From positions 1 through 64,000 of the forward strand of contig JAKPJZ010000201.1 in assembly GCA_029553955.1 (NCBI GenBank): DNA of 64,000 bases, given 5' to 3'. This stretch comes from Chloroflexota bacterium (GTDB lineage Bacteria > Chloroflexota > Anaerolineae > SpSt-313). A program made the translations under genes and the position numbers. This document shows, in pieces, positions 7,354 to 13,245 of the stretch. A model generated the notes under the pieces. The model saw nothing but the letters and a program-made list of their open reading frames with translations, did not search any database and was not told where the DNA came from. The number at the start of each line of letters is the position of its first letter. Positions within the stretch are counted from its first letter, which is position 1.

Positions 7354-7431
7354 CCTTGCGCTCTGCTGCCACATGCGAGAAGACGGACCAGTCCAGGGTA
7401 TGGCTGGTCGTGATTATTGGGAGGCCTTTCT

Positions 7432-10400
7432 ATGCAATTGTCTGGGCTGGTGCCCTTGATTGAGGCGCTGCCGGGGGTGCGGCGCCTGAGTAAGGACTTG
7501 GATCAAGGCTCGCTCGCCGCGCTGCGGGGCGCGGCCTTGGGCGTGCCCGAGGCGGCGCGGGCGGCGGTGGTGGCGGCCCTGGTGCGCCATTGGCAAGGCC
7601 CGGTGCTATGGGTGACGGCGGGGCCCGAACGCGCGCGCCTGGCGCACGACGAGCTGGGGCTGTGGACGGGCGAGCCACGGCGCGTGCAGCACTTTCCGGC
7701 GCCGGAAGCGCTCTTCTACGATCGCACGCCCTGGGAGCCGGAGACGGTGCGCCAGCGCGTGGCCGTTCTGGCGCAGCTTGCCGGGGCGCTGGAAGAGGAG
7801 GCCGCGCCCATCATCGTGGCGCCGGCTTGGGCGTTGATGGTGCGCACGGTGCCGGCGGCGCTGCTCAAGGGCGGCATTCGCGCCCTGAAGGTGGGGCAGT
7901 TCCGGCCCCCGGCCGAGCTGGCGGCGGCCTGGCTGCGCTTTGGCTACCAGCCGGTGAGCGTCGTCGAGGAGCCGGGCTCGTTCAGCATGCGCGGCGGCAT
8001 TGTCGACGTCTACCCGCCCAACCTGCCGCAGCCAGTGCGCCTCGAGTTCTTTGGCGATGAGATCGACAGCCTGCGCGCCTTCGACCCGGCCACGCAGCGC
8101 TCGGGGCAGGCGCTCGATGCGGTGCAGGTGGTGCCGGCGAGCGAGGCCTTTATGAGCCAGGGGCCGCGTGCCGCGAGCGCCCTGCGCCAGGGCGGCTGGC
8201 GCGACCTCGTGCCCGCCCACGGCCAGCGCCTGGAGCGCGACGTGGAGCGGCTCGAGCGGGGCGAGGCCTTCCTGGGTATGGAGTATTACCTGCCCTACCT
8301 CTACCCGCAGCCGGCCACGCTGCTCGACTATGTCGATGGCCAGGCGCTGGTGATCGCCGATGACCTGCTGGCCATCAAGGCCGAGGCGCAGGCGCTGGAG
8401 GGCCAGGCGGCCGACCTGCGGGCCGAGCTGCAGTGCGAACGGGAGTTGCCGGTCACCTGGCCGGTGCCCTACCTGGCATGGGGCGAACTCGCCGAGCGCC
8501 TGGCGGCCAAGGGGGCGCTGAGCCTGGCCTACGATGCCGCGCCGGAGGAGCTGCTGCTGGCCGAAGAGGAGAGCTTTCAGCCGGGCCTGCGCTACGGCGG
8601 CCGTATGAAGCAGGCGCTCGACGACGTGCGCCGCGTGCTCGAGGCCGGCGGCCGGGCGGTGCTGGTCAGCCGGCAGACGGCGCGTCTGCGCGAGCTGCTC
8701 GCCGAGCTCAACCTCAGCGTGTACCCGCGGGAGGCGATCATCGCCGTGCCGCCGGCCGGCTCGCTGACGATGGTGCAGGGGTCGCTCTCGGAGGGCTGGG
8801 CATTGGCCGGCGAGCGGCTGGCCGTGCTCACCGACGCCGAGCTGTATGGCTGGCGGCGCTCACAGCCCCGGCGGCAGCGGCGAGCGCGCGCCCTGGCGCC
8901 CGAGGCCTTCTTCGCCGATCTGCGCGAGGGCGAGTATGTGGTGCACATGGACCACGGCGTCGGCATCTACCGCGGCCTGGTGCGCAAGACCGCGGGCGAT
9001 ACGGAGCGCGAATACCTCGAGGTCGAGTACCAGGGCGGCGACCGGCTGTTCGTGCCGGCGCAACAGGTCGACCGGCTCACGCGCTACGTCGGCGGCGAAG
9101 CGCACGAGGTGACGTTGCAACGGCTGGGCACCGCCGACTGGGCGCAGATCAAAGCGCGCACGCGGCGCGCGGTGGAGGATATCGCCCGCGACCTGCTCGA
9201 GCTCTATGCGACGCGTGAGGTCGTGCCCGGCCATGCCTTCGCCTCCGACAACCAGTGGCAGCTCGAGCTGGAGGAGTCATTCCCCTACGACGAGACACGC
9301 GACCAACTGCAGGCGCTGTCCGAGGTCAAGGGCGATATGGAAAAGCCCAAGCCGATGGATCGCCTGATCTGCGGCGATGTGGGCTATGGCAAGACCGAAG
9401 TGGCCCTGCGCGCGGCGTTCAAGGCGGTGATGGACGGGCGGCAGGTGGCGGTGCTCGTGCCGACGACGGTGCTCGCCCAGCAGCACTATTACACGTTCGA
9501 GGAGCGCCTGCGTGCCTTCCCGGTGAAGGTGGAGATGCTCTCCCGCTTCCGCACCCACCAGGAGCAGAAGGGCATCCTGGAAGAACTGGAGGCGGGCACG
9601 ATCGACATCATCATCGGCACGCACCGGCTCATCCAGCGCGACGTCAAGTTTGGGAACCTGGGCCTGCTCATCGTCGACGAGGAGCAGCGCTTTGGCGTGG
9701 GCCACAAGGAGCGGCTCAAGCGCCTGCGTCGCGAGGTCGATGTGCTCACCCTCAGCGCCACGCCCATCCCGCGGACGCTGTACATGGCGCTGACCGGCGT
9801 GCGCGATATGAGCACCATCAATACACCGCCGGAGGACCGCCTGCCCATCCGCACCCAGGTGGTGGAGTATGACGAAGGGCTGGTGCGCAAGGCTATCCTG
9901 CGCGAGCTGGACCGGGGCGGCCAGGTGTTCTTTGTGCACAACCGCGTGCAGGGCATCTACCAGATGACGCAGCAACTGCAAAGGCTGGTGCCCGAGGCCA
10001 GCTTTTGCGTGGGTCACGGCCAGATGGACGAGGGCGAGCTGGCGCGGGTGATGCTCGACTTTGCGGCGGGCAGGTACGATGTGCTCGTCTGCACGACGAT
10101 CATCGAGAGCGGCCTCGACATTCCCAACGTCAACACGATCATCATCAATCGGGCCGATCGCTTTGGCCTGGCGCAGCTCTACCAACTGCGCGGACGCGTG
10201 GGGCGTAGTGCGAACCGCGCCTATGCCTACCTGCTCTACAACCGGCACCAGCAGCTCACGCCGGTGGCCGGGCGGCGGCTCGAGGCGCTGCTCGAAGCCG
10301 CCGAGCTGGGCGCGGGCTTTCAGATCGCCATGCGCGACCTGGAGATCCGCGGCGCCGGCGAGATGCTGGGGCCCGAGCAGCACGGGCATATCGTGGCGGT

Positions 10401-10947
10401 GGGCTTTGACCTCTACTGCCGCATGCTGGCCCAGGCGATCAAACGGCTGAAGGCGGCGGTGGACAGCGGCCAGGCCGCGGAGCCGGCAGCGCTCACGGCG
10501 GCGGAGGGCGGCGTGGTGGTGGACCTGCCGCTCTCGGCGCACCTGCCCGAGAGCTATGTGGCCGATACGGCCCTGCGCCTGCGGCTCTATCGCCGCCTGG
10601 CCGAGGTGGGCCAGCCCGAGGAGGTGGAGGCGCTGCAGCAGGAGCTGGCCGAGCGCTTTGGCCCGCTACCTGCAGCGGTGCAGAACCTGCTCTACCTGCT
10701 GCGGCTGAAGGTGCTGGCGACGCGGGCCGGGGTGGCGGCCGTGGCGACGGAGGGCCACGACGTGGTACTGCGCTTCCCGGACCTGTTGCCGCCCGCGGTG
10801 ATCCAACAGGCGCACCGTTTCGGTAGCCGGGTGGCCGTCGGCCGCAACCGGCTCGCCATTGCTCGCGAGGAGCGCTGGCGCGAGCTGCTGGTGGCGCTGC
10901 TCATCGTGCTGGCCCAGCGGGTCGGCGCCGAGGCCGTCGCGGCGTAG
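7432..10947 (+). CDS. mfd: Transcription-repair coupling factor
   Basis: The 1171-residue protein removes RNA polymerase stalled at DNA lesions and recruits the UvrABC repair machinery. An N-terminal UvrB-like region (about 1-350) is followed by the CarD-like RNA-polymerase-interacting domain (EYVVHMDHGVGIYRG, near 502). The translocase has Walker A GDVGYGKTEVALRAAF (near 645) and the DEEQ box LLIVDEEQRFGVGHKE. Motif VI is LYQLRGRVGRSANRAYAY, and a C-terminal TRCF domain closes the protein. The frame opens five codons earlier, but the ATG at 7432 has GGGAGG at a proper distance and is preferred. Length is normal for the family and no motif is missing. Confidence 0.97.
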   Translation: MQLSGLVPLIEALPGVRRLSKDLDQGSLAALRGAALGVPEAARAAVVAALVRHWQGPVLWVTAGPERARLAHDELGLWTGEPRRVQHFPAPEALFYDRTPWEPETVRQRVAVLAQLAGALEEEAAPIIVAPAWALMVRTVPAALLKGGIRALKVGQFRPPAELAAAWLRFGYQPVSVVEEPGSFSMRGGIVDVYPPNLPQPVRLEFFGDEIDSLRAFDPATQRSGQALDAVQVVPASEAFMSQGPRAASALRQGGWRDLVPAHGQRLERDVERLERGEAFLGMEYYLPYLYPQPATLLDYVDGQALVIADDLLAIKAEAQALEGQAADLRAELQCERELPVTWPVPYLAWGELAERLAAKGALSLAYDAAPEELLLAEEESFQPGLRYGGRMKQALDDVRRVLEAGGRAVLVSRQTARLRELLAELNLSVYPREAIIAVPPAGSLTMVQGSLSEGWALAGERLAVLTDAELYGWRRSQPRRQRRARALAPEAFFADLREGEYVVHMDHGVGIYRGLVRKTAGDTEREYLEVEYQGGDRLFVPAQQVDRLTRYVGGEAHEVTLQRLGTADWAQIKARTRRAVEDIARDLLELYATREVVPGHAFASDNQWQLELEESFPYDETRDQLQALSEVKGDMEKPKPMDRLICGDVGYGKTEVALRAAFKAVMDGRQVAVLVPTTVLAQQHYYTFEERLRAFPVKVEMLSRFRTHQEQKGILEELEAGTIDIIIGTHRLIQRDVKFGNLGLLIVDEEQRFGVGHKERLKRLRREVDVLTLSATPIPRTLYMALTGVRDMSTINTPPEDRLPIRTQVVEYDEGLVRKAILRELDRGGQVFFVHNRVQGIYQMTQQLQRLVPEASFCVGHGQMDEGELARVMLDFAAGRYDVLVCTTIIESGLDIPNVNTIIINRADRFGLAQLYQLRGRVGRSANRAYAYLLYNRHQQLTPVAGRRLEALLEAAELGAGFQIAMRDLEIRGAGEMLGPEQHGHIVAVGFDLYCRMLAQAIKRLKAAVDSGQAAEPAALTAAEGGVVVDLPLSAHLPESYVADTALRLRLYRRLAEVGQPEEVEALQQELAERFGPLPAAVQNLLYLLRLKVLATRAGVAAVATEGHDVVLRFPDLLPPAVIQQAHRFGSRVAVGRNRLAIAREERWRELLVALLIVLAQRVGAEAVAA

Positions 10948-10956
10948 CGAGCTTGT

Positions 10957-11114
10957 TCCCTCTCCCCCGAGGGGGAGAGGGTTAGGGTGAGGGGGAACTC
11001 CGGGGTCTGGCGAGCGCCGGGATGTGCTCGAAGTGGCTTGCCGGCGAGCGGGATTGGCCGCTGACACGGCGTTTCACCCTCACCCCCGCCCTCTCCCTGA
11101 GGGAGAGGGTGAAG
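10957..11114. repeat. ccctctccc REP-like repeats, left pair
   Basis: Two copies of a repeat built on CCTCTCCC and GGGAGAGG arms plus the tail TTAGGGTGAGGGGG lie in opposite orientation at 10957-10996 and 11072-11114. Related sequences at 11551-11663 lie on the other side of the DUF559 gene. The repeats separate mfd from that gene and could also form hairpins at the 3' ends of both converging transcripts. Confidence 0.85.
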
Positions 11115-11125
11115 CTGTCGCCCGC

Positions 11126-11509
11126 CTAGAGAAGCGGCGCGGAGTCCGAGCCCTCCTCGCAGGCGGCCAGAATGGCCTCGAGCACCGCTTCCAGTCTCTG
11201 CTGCACATCGGCATTCGTGAAGCGGATCACGCGAAAGCCCTGGCCCTCCAGCCATGCCGTACGGGCCGCATCGTACTCGGGCCGCTCCACATGCGAGTCT
11301 CCATCGACCTCGACGATGAGGTGGCTGGCTAGGCAGCAAAAGTCAGCGATGAAACGGCCGATGGGGTGTTGGCGCCGGAACTTGAAGCCCTCCAACTGCC
11401 TGGCCCGCAGGTGTGCCCAGAGCTTCTGTTCGGATGCAGTCAGGGCTTGCCGTAGCGCTCGAGCGTTGGCGAGGGTCTTGGGCCGGACGCGTTGTCTCAT
11501 ATCTGGCAT
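11126..11509 (-). CDS. DUF559 family protein (Vsr-like endonuclease fold)
   Basis: The 127-residue product matches DUF559 along its length: SEQKLWAHLRARQLEGFKFR near 28, then HPIGRFIADFCC, LIVEVDGDSH near 66, and GFRVIRFTNADV near 92. The pattern FIADF...LIVEVDGDSH supplies the Asp and Glu-x-Asp residues of a PD-(D/E)XK-type nuclease, the fold shared with very-short-patch repair enzymes. Function of the family is not established. AAGGAGG lies 9 nt before the ATG at 11509. It sits between copies of one REP-like repeat on both sides (10957-11114 and 11551-11663), as though gene and repeats travel together. Confidence 0.85.
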   Translation of the reverse strand: MPDMRQRVRPKTLANARALRQALTASEQKLWAHLRARQLEGFKFRRQHPIGRFIADFCCLASHLIVEVDGDSHVERPEYDAARTAWLEGQGFRVIRFTNADVQQRLEAVLEAILAACEEGSDSAPLL

Positions 11510-11550
11510 TATGGCCGTCCTCCTTCGAAAGGCTCGCCATGGCGAAGAAG

Positions 11551-11663
11551 TCCCCTCACCCTAACCCTCTCCCCGCGGGGGAGAGGGGATAGGCTTGCCA
11601 CGGTGCGGAGTCCCCCTCACCCTAGCCCTCTCCCCTGCGGGGGAGAGGGCTAGGGTGAGGGGG
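11551..11663. repeat. ccctctccc REP-like repeats, right pair, with 52-bp hairpin
   Basis: One copy lies at 11551-11590. The second, 11612-11663, is an almost perfect inverted repeat with about 24-bp arms of the form CCCCCTCACCCTAGCCCTCT. The minus-strand sulfatase-fold gene ends inside this copy: its stop codon TAG (11650-11652) and last residues EGEAPSP are encoded by repeat sequence, which suggests the insertion reshaped that C-terminus. Confidence 0.9.
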
Positions 11664-13245
11664 CTTCTCCCTCTGACGCGACGTGGACAAAGTGGTACGG
11701 GGTGAGCCAGGGGGAGTAGTAGCTCTCGTCGGGGAGCAGTGCATAGCCGACGCCGAGGTACTCGCTGAGGATGAGCCGGAAGGTGTTCACCGGCGTGATG
11801 CCGGCGTACAGGTGCTCTGTGCCCCCGGGCAGGCAGTAGGCGTTGAGGATGGACGTGCGCTCGCGGAGGTCCGTACGCTCGGCGCTCGCCCAGCTCAGCC
11901 GCGAGCCGGGGCCGTGGTCGGCCTGCAGCACGATGATGGGCGGCCGGGCAGAGCCGGCCAGGATGGCGTCGAGCACCGGCGCGATCTGCGTGTTGACCCA
12001 GCTCACCTGCCCGGTGTAGCCCGCGATGTACTCCTCGGTGGTGCCCCCGGCGCCGATGAAGTGTGGCCCGTCGGAGAATTCGAACTCGCGATTGGGCGTG
12101 ATCTTGTCGCCGTTGGGGCCAAAGACGAACGGCGGGTGCGGCGCGGCGATGTGCGCCAGCACGAACAGAGGTCCCTGCTTCTGCGGCATCTGGGCCAGGT
12201 GCGCAATGGCGTAGAGCAGGCGCTGCCGGTGCATTTCGTGCTGCATCTCGATGAGGGGCGTAAGCGGGGTCGAGTTCAGGATGCCGCTCTCGAACTGGGA
12301 GAGCGACCAGCCGGCGCTGAGGAAGACATCGGCCGCAGCGAGCTCTTGGTCGGCATAGCCGGTCGAGATGGCCACGTAGGTGTAGCCTGCCTGCTTGAGC
12401 AGCTCGGCCACGGCGTTGTGGGCCAGCAGATCCTGCAGCGGCGTGCGGTCCTCGCAGTCCTCGCCGACTTGCGCGGCGAGCTCGTCGAGGTAGGTCATGT
12501 TGAGCGACGACCCCAGCGAGAGGTAGGTCTGGACATAGTTGCTGCGGCTGCGCTCGGCGATGTAGAAGCCTCGCTGAGTTAGGCCGGCGAGAAAGCCGGC
12601 GTTGTCGTAGCCGTAGAGGTCCTGAAGTACGTCGGCGCGGGCGTAGCCGTCGAGGATGATATAGTAGATGTCGGGCGGCTCGGTGGGCGTAGGTGTGGCT
12701 GTTGGCGGCGTGGCGGTGGCGGCCCCGTGCGTTGGTTCGGGCGCGTGCGTGGCGGGCGCCCGGGTCTTGAGCGCAGCGACGGCGCCGGCGTTTGGCCGCG
12801 GCGCGGCGGTCGCGCGCGCGAACAGCGTGGGGGCCATGCCGATGAGCGGCATGGCGACCAGGGCCAGGCCGGCGATGGTCAGGATGCCGGCGACGGGCTG
12901 CAGTTGCCCACGGTGCTTGAGCACAATGGCGACGGTCAGGCCGAGCAGCGCCAGACAACCGAGCCCCACGAGCGCTTCGCTCACCGCACTGCGGCGGCCG
13001 AACAGGGCGAGCAGGCGCCCGTAGGAAAAGAAGAGGAGCCAGAAGACCGAGAGCGTGATCGCCGCGGCCTCCAGGCTCTTCATCAGCCGCGCGCCCACGA
13101 GCAGCAGCAGCGTGGTGATGCCGGCGAGGATGGCGACGGGCAGCAAAAGCTCTCTGGGGCGCACAAAGTCGAGGTTGCTGGCCAGGAGCGACAGCAGCGG
13201 GAAGGCGACAAAGAGAAAGGGCTGGACGACGGTGAGCCGCTTCAC
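11650..13245 (-). CDS. Membrane-anchored sulfatase / alkaline-phosphatase-superfamily protein
   Basis: The 531-residue protein has four to five membrane helices in residues 1-140, then a Thr/Pro linker (about 150-190). A large extracytoplasmic domain of the sulfatase/alkaline phosphatase fold follows. Recognisable parts are DIYYIILDGYARADVL (metal-binding Asp, near 192), FVLAHIAAPHPPFVFGP near 360 and IIVLQADHGPGS near 446. These resemble LtaS-like or phosphoglycerol-transferase-type membrane enzymes that modify envelope polymers. The usual Ser/Thr nucleophile position is not certain here. The GTG start at 13245 overlaps the stop of the upstream methyltransferase by 4 bp, so the two are co-translated. 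The extreme C-terminus is encoded by a REP-like repeat. Confidence 0.75.
   Translation of the reverse strand: MKRLTVVQPFLFVAFPLLSLLASNLDFVRPRELLLPVAILAGITTLLLLVGARLMKSLEAAAITLSVFWLLFFSYGRLLALFGRRSAVSEALVGLGCLALLGLTVAIVLKHRGQLQPVAGILTIAGLALVAMPLIGMAPTLFARATAAPRPNAGAVAALKTRAPATHAPEPTHGAATATPPTATPTPTEPPDIYYIILDGYARADVLQDLYGYDNAGFLAGLTQRGFYIAERSRSNYVQTYLSLGSSLNMTYLDELAAQVGEDCEDRTPLQDLLAHNAVAELLKQAGYTYVAISTGYADQELAAADVFLSAGWSLSQFESGILNSTPLTPLIEMQHEMHRQRLLYAIAHLAQMPQKQGPLFVLAHIAAPHPPFVFGPNGDKITPNREFEFSDGPHFIGAGGTTEEYIAGYTGQVSWVNTQIAPVLDAILAGSARPPIIVLQADHGPGSRLSWASAERTDLRERTSILNAYCLPGGTEHLYAGITPVNTFRLILSEYLGVGYALLPDESYYSPWLTPYHFVHVASEGEAPSP

Follow-up and report, generated by a model that had tools for sequence, protein, structure and literature searches.

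A DUF559 nuclease-fold gene enclosed by BoxC-like triplex-type repeats in a Chloroflexota genome and the association of such genes with triplex-type repeats across bacteria

The DUF559 gene and its flanking repeats

The window analysed here is a stretch of 64,000 nucleotides (contig 37) from a Chloroflexota genome of 5.37 Mb in 272 contigs. It contains a gene whose product matches PF04480 (DUF559) with an E-value of 2.8e-42, located between a transcription-repair coupling factor gene and a sulfatase-fold ORF (Table 1). The first-pass annotation, made from the sequence alone, had described this gene as bracketed by two repeats on each side, and it had stated that the sulfatase-fold gene takes its stop codon and final residues from the repeat. 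Both descriptions are correct: the gene is enclosed by CCCTCTCCC/GGGTGAGGG repeats, two on either side, and the sulfatase-fold ORF ends within one of them. The outermost left copy reads CCCTCTCCC-CCGAGG-GGGAGAGGG-TTA-GGGTGAGGG-GG. Our motif finder detected five triplex-type motifs in the whole 64-kb window, every one of them between 10958 and 11660.

Table 1. Genes and repeat features around the DUF559 gene (coordinates of the window).
Position	Strand	Feature	Remark
7417-10947	+	Transcription-repair coupling factor gene	One flank of the DUF559 locus
10958-10995	+	Repeat copy, type A (second loop TTA)	Fits the published TM_ECO/BoxC pattern
10958-11113	+	Mini-unit of type A and type B repeats, tails inward	125 bp from R-stem to Y-stem
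11075-11113	-	Repeat copy, type B (second loop CGG)	Inverted relative to 10958-10995
11126-11509	-	DUF559 gene, 127 aa	Predicted Vsr/EDxHD-type PD-(D/E)XK nuclease fold
11527-11550	-	A-side subterminal box, TGGCGAGCC on the minus strand	From alignment with dispersed mini-units
11551-11587	-	Repeat copy, type A	Third strand towards the DUF559 gene
11612-11663		Perfect 24-bp inverted repeat, two overlapping type-A copies (second loop CTA)	
11650-11667	-	Final codons and stop (E-A-P-S-P-stop) of the sulfatase-fold ORF	Mostly inside the repeat
11650-13245	-	Sulfatase-fold ORF	Other flank of the DUF559 locus

On its left the gene adjoins the outer end of the A/B mini-unit, so that no single clean two-ended autonomous unit can be drawn in the window. 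On the other side, the subterminal box is common to the dispersed mini-units described below and thereby ties the right-hand end of the gene to them. The perfect inverted repeat has a 4-nt loop and adjoins the stop codon of the sulfatase-fold gene. PADLOC gave no defence match. An Rfam scan around the DUF559 gene yielded no family at the gathering score, only microRNA-like matches below threshold, which we attribute to the palindromes.

Fold and conserved residues of the DUF559 protein

The PD-(D/E)XK-like residues and the Vsr-like fold proposed in the first-pass annotation both found support. The catalytic-type residues E27, D56, E67, D69 and H73, together with D80 and R83, are invariant in 37 relatives (E, D, ExDGxxH). 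The structure model (pLDDT 83.5) was compared with known structures by Foldseek, and its best match is the Neisseria DUF559 structure 3hrl (TM 0.90 over target), followed by the homing endonuclease I-Bth0305I (PDB 3r3p, TM 0.79 over target) and, more weakly, by Vsr (1vsr, TM about 0.5, probability 0.99). A Vsr/EDxHD homing-endonuclease fold with a PD-(D/E)XK core is thus supported for the window protein at the level of a predicted model, without a cleavage assay; its E. coli relative YcjD had been assigned to the PD-(D/E)XK superfamily earlier (PMC1189080).

The protein resembles the EDxHD homing endonuclease I-Bth0305I in the fold of the catalytic domain, in the E/D/H residue pattern and in belonging to mobile nuclease genes, but no intron or intein host was recognised for the DUF559 gene, dispersed repeats lie on both sides of it, and non-autonomous pairs of repeats multiply. 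With Vsr it shares the Vsr-like PD-(D/E)XK core, at a weaker fold match; unlike Vsr, it is flanked by dispersed repeats, and no cytosine methyltransferase gene adjoins it in the window.

Two repeat families in the genome of the window

The genome contains 64 copies of the core CCCTCACCCTAACCCTCTCCC when at most three mismatches are allowed, and the reversed pattern, used as a control, gave 1 hit. Seven further mini-units elsewhere in the genome have the same 125-bp core as the one at 10958-11113. We aligned 14 paired units from the genome and typed them by a simple loop rule, which gave ten A+B, one B+B and three A+A pairs; their cores are exactly 125 bp long in 8 cases and 121-125 bp in 13. 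Most of these units have common subterminal boxes, TGGCGAGC on the A side and GGCGTTTCACCC on the B side, and the A-ends to the right of the DUF559 gene also carry a TGGCGAGCC or TGGCAAGCC box.

There are two DUF559 genes in the genome, and different dispersed repeat families flank them. The second gene (locus L002, C163:51705-52010) is flanked by GACCCCATTCCCCCGCGACGGGGGAACG, which is found in 94 dispersed copies and not at all as the reversed control, many copies being arranged in inverted pairs exactly 89 bp apart. The pairing of two paralogues with two families is like the repeat-specific pairing in REPtrons (PMC3733652). Both families also form paired mini-units of fixed length.

Relation of the repeat to BoxC and TM_ECO

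BoxC, or triplex, repeats have been known in E. coli since the 1990s and are present in hundreds of genomes, and to our knowledge no enzyme that spreads them was known before. The E. coli pattern of BoxC, PIT or TM_ECO is CCCTCNCCC-N3-6-GGGNGAGGG-N3-GGGNGAGGG (Holder et al. 2015, PMC4666352), and the window copy at 10958-10995 fits it exactly, the other window copies having small changes. In the same work, BoxC/TM_ECO oligonucleotides of E. coli formed an intrastrand triplex in vitro, type A was defined by the second loop TTA and type B by CCG, and close inverted pairs in E. coli always joined A with B. The repeats of our genome likewise occur as types A (TTA) and B, and inverted A+B pairs make up the window pair and 10 of the 14 paired units. 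The difference is that the window element is tied to a nuclease gene and that the type reaches Chloroflexota and other phyla. Judged by their sequence, the window repeats are members, or architectural relatives, of BoxC/TM_ECO; a triplex has been demonstrated only for the E. coli oligonucleotides. Holder et al. reported no transposase or integrase remnants and no mobility-type genes near TM_ECO sites, and DUF559 or ycjD is not mentioned there (PMC4666352).

Association of DUF559 genes with triplex-type repeats

The first-pass annotation had proposed to count how often DUF559 genes lie close to this repeat and had named the lack of any association across genomes as the refuting outcome. We compiled 104 DUF559 loci, which together span three or more phyla: they belong to Chloroflexota and Pseudomonadota, to a phylum sample built around an Armatimonadota-titled genome, and to six other genomes. 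The loci came from whole-genome family searches (a single-protein scan of public genome contigs gave only 6 relatives) and represent the best DUF559 match per genome, weaker or partial matches being under-represented; L039 and L070 are one locus counted twice, since the same genome was reached two ways. Genes for PIN, HNH and Y1 transposase proteins (n = 90) were used as controls, and motifs were called by a generic purine-triplex finder with an 8-bp perfect stem and a mirror third strand with at most one mismatch.

A triplex-type motif was found within 300 bp of the gene at 74 of the 104 DUF559 loci and at none of the 90 control loci (p = 2e-29), so that the refuting outcome was not met. In the window's own phylum the motif lies near 22 of 29 DUF559 loci (controls 0/90), and when a relaxed finder or matched flank repeats were allowed, 91 of the 104 loci qualified. 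The association did not depend on the motif: when the best local alignment between the two 250-bp flanks was taken, inverted scores of at least 40 were reached at 10/27, 14/29, 9/26 and 9/16 DUF559 loci in four samples (35-56%), at 0/30 PIN-domain genes and in 0-0.6% of same-locus control windows. Motif density is 2.2-3.3 per kb near DUF559, 0.03-0.37 per kb further out and 0-0.01 per kb in shuffled flanks. The repeats show an orientation bias: of 112 sides, 86 have the third strand directed at the gene and 26 away from it (p = 1e-8), with a mixed picture by locus (in/in 24, out/out 7, mixed 6). Chance or base composition as the cause is ruled out by the shuffles, the same-locus controls and the three control families. 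The association of DUF559 with triplex-type repeats is therefore general.

These data also bear on two other explanations. First, the repeats could be ordinary terminators or relaxed intergenic sequence such as may surround any small dispensable gene. They are indeed palindromic and mostly intergenic (PMC4666352), but such repeats are absent from all 90 PIN, HNH and Y1 loci and their density near the gene is 9-90 times that further out at the same loci; moreover, earlier work cited in PMC4666352 recorded no terminator activity for them. We regard this explanation as hardly credible. Second, the repeats could be moved in trans by another enzyme, for example a Y1 transposase of the IS200/RAYT type, with DUF559 merely carried along in a composite unit. 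A link between REPs in general and Y1 transposases is established (PMC3733652), and Y1 genes are present in these genomes; however, none of 30 Y1_Tnp loci of the same phylum had the motif within 300 or 700 bp, the examined loci had no gene other than DUF559 between the repeats, and the active-site residues of DUF559 do not vary, all of which makes mobilisation in trans very improbable.

We further surveyed 301 genomes of the window's phylum for co-occurrence, without correction for phylogeny. At least five pattern hits were present in 62 of 93 genomes with strong DUF559 matches vs 31 of 159 without (p = 1.4e-13), and 21 of these 159 genomes lacking DUF559 still have at least 20 hits. One genome of the phylum (G295) holds 1,169 hits (459 forward, 710 reverse), by far the most of all genomes sampled. 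A phage collection contained only 3 weak DUF559 relatives, which suggests that phage carriage is not the main route.

Conserved architecture and variable sequence

The sequence of the flanking repeats varies by genome, and the architecture is kept: a C-rich Y-stem, a loop, a G-rich R-stem, a spacer and a mirror third strand. One example is CCTTCCCC-TCTGA-GGGGAAGG-..-GGATGGGG, another is CCCCCTCTCC..GGAGAGGGGG-TCA-GGGGGTGAGG, and the spacer of some repeats holds a small hairpin. Loci with similar proteins tend to have similar repeats (Mantel r = 0.24, p = 0.001), a value uncorrected for common ancestry, which is a confounder. At four loci of the Pseudomonadota sample (L092, L097, L106 and L107) the repeat has the form TCTCCCCCCTTGCGGGGGAGATGTCCGGCAGGACAGAGGGGGG, and a small hairpin separates the stem from the third strand; this form may be a mosaic repeat that already has a name in some group.

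Gene-bearing units as putative mobile elements

In Deinococcus sp. NW-56 a DUF559 unit separates two genes of the hpa operon. In D. deserti, D. ficus and D. proteolyticus the ORFs of these two genes have a 4-bp overlap. The operon of D. proteolyticus also contains a close relative, at a different position, and the common block of these units ends in CACCCCCCTCCC and GGGAGGGGGGTG. A plasmid of Synechocystis B12 has a DUF1156 gene split by a DUF559 unit; in Planktothrix and Nostoc this gene is uninterrupted. Several genomes have 5-13 DUF559 matches, some with internal stop codons, and this fits the decay of mobile elements. Comparison of these sequences strongly indicates that gene-bearing DUF559 units are mobile.

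The strongest competitor to a joint dispersal of gene and repeats holds that a homing-type or passenger DUF559 gene inserts beside or between pre-existing triplex repeats, as safe sites, and that the repeats spread otherwise. It can call on the EDxHD homing endonuclease I-Bth0305I as the closest fold after the Neisseria DUF559 protein and on the repeat-rich genomes without detectable DUF559. Insertion into repeats would not, however, account for repeats that travel with the gene: the repeat sequence co-varies with the protein (by the Mantel test above, with ancestry uncorrected), two paralogues in one genome have two different families, and two Deinococcus units at different sites have the same ends. 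We consider this explanation unlikely.

A role in host genome maintenance has also to be weighed, in which DUF559 would be a Vsr-like repair nuclease, or one that cuts triplex or hairpin arms, residing beside its substrates without any part in their spread. The Vsr-like fold agrees with such a role, the Caulobacter DUF559 protein VsrA has been proposed to act in VSP-type mismatch repair (PMC12907096), and a link of triplex motifs with unstable genome regions is known from E. coli, where they go along with genome instability (PMC4666352). A repair enzyme acting in trans, however, needs no flanking substrate, the multiple and partly interrupted DUF559 matches are as in mobile elements, and the units interrupt a gene or vary in position within an operon. 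A purely maintenance role thus appears quite improbable.

A proposed dispersal system and its relation to known elements

Considering these results, we regard it as probable that the DUF559 gene belongs with its flanking repeats to a single selfish dispersal system resembling REP-RAYT, with a PD-(D/E)XK nuclease in place of the HUH transposase. The bracketing suggests that the enzyme is the long-missing partner that spreads the triplex repeats. Under this dispersal reading, the repeats would be the cognate ends of the nuclease and able to form an intrastrand triplex when single-stranded. A gene-bearing unit of about 0.5 kb (repeat-DUF559-repeat) would insert into genomes, and shorter non-autonomous end pairs (BoxC A+B, about 100-160 bp) would amplify to tens or hundreds, like REPINs with RAYT. 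The nuclease would recognise the hairpin or triplex end, probably on single strands exposed at replication forks, and cut there, after which host repair would copy the unit to new sites. The association, the architecture, the orientation bias, the fixed-length dispersal, the polymorphic or extra copies and the conserved active-site residues are observed; cutting of the repeat by the nuclease and the copying are inferred, and no cleavage or binding data exist for any DUF559 protein. We know of no strand-transfer chemistry for the Vsr/EDxHD-type fold, and because of this the route would be nearer to homing than to classical strand-transfer transposition; a homing-like cut-and-repair route in particular is a tentative inference that may well prove wrong.

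The parallel with REP sequences and RAYT drawn in the first-pass annotation stands up well. As in REP/REPIN-RAYT (TnpA-REP) systems, inverted palindromes lie on both sides of a mostly low-copy enzyme gene and recur elsewhere in the genome, often as non-autonomous inverted pairs with a fixed distance between them, and there is one repeat family per enzyme, here one for each paralogue. The differences are that the enzyme is a Vsr-fold PD-(D/E)XK nuclease rather than an HUH Y1 enzyme and that the repeat has a mirror third strand. No GTAG/CGTC tag adjoins the window repeats. The DUF559 system thus works like REP-RAYT and is not a member of it, since both the HUH Y1 enzyme and the tag are absent. 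It is also comparable to MITEs and their autonomous insertion sequences, with short paired-end non-autonomous units and a gene-bearing unit with related ends, but there is no transposase of known class and no target-site duplication was seen. A classical insertion sequence was rejected: only DUF559 lies between the repeats, with no DDE, HUH, serine or tyrosine recombinase, and the compared sites show no duplication.

If the proposal is true, it would provide a second, non-homologous enzyme type for a system of the REP-RAYT kind and a likely role for DUF559, a widespread domain whose function is unknown, and it would point to intrastrand triplex DNA as the possible natural substrate of a nuclease. 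Should DUF559 drive mobility by itself, the units would constitute a new class of element.

ycjD and BoxC in E. coli

The DUF559 gene of E. coli K-12 is ycjD. TM_ECO no. 9 lies about 170 bp away from it, according to the position in the published table, and a degenerate copy adjoins its stop codon. In open-licence PMC text we found no remark on this adjacency and no paper on DUF559 together with REP; the EefABC paper (PMC12817139) and Holder et al. (PMC4666352) treat ycjD or TM_ECO separately. So far as that text shows, what is new here is the link of a BoxC/TM_ECO-type element with DUF559, including ycjD, the repeat itself being already known. With ycjD as a candidate, the question of how BoxC spread becomes testable in E. 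coli. In its widest form, the proposal is a class of mobile elements in several phyla, E. coli K-12 included, each relying on a single Vsr/EDxHD-fold nuclease to recognise intrastrand-triplex ends and to drive the copying of itself and of non-autonomous pairs, with enterobacterial BoxC and analogous C-rich palindromes elsewhere as its footprints; we find the case for and against this evenly balanced.

ycjD is present in roughly 3,363 of 5,426 complete genomes. The fabI-sapF interval (L171 in K-12) holds ycjD in some lineages and an efflux operon in others (PMC12817139). A spread sample of chromosomes gave 13-32 BoxC places for the 37 that have ycjD and 1-19 for the 21 that lack it, the latter including a group with 1-3 places. 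Lineage is confounded with ycjD status in this comparison, and lineages without ycjD keep up to 19 copies, so that copy number is only partly linked to the gene.

BoxC pairs are present or absent between E. coli strains. No target-site duplication was recognised at the E. coli and Deinococcus sites compared, and presence or absence alone does not exclude deletion. At fepB-entC the strains show a clean 186-bp length difference, and hrpB-mrcB looks like a replacement of 15 bp by 117 bp. At alx-sstT of E. coli ATCC 25922 (L184), a BoxC pair has a 75-bp internal deletion that leaves one hairpin, and the product would resemble the solitary copies found elsewhere.
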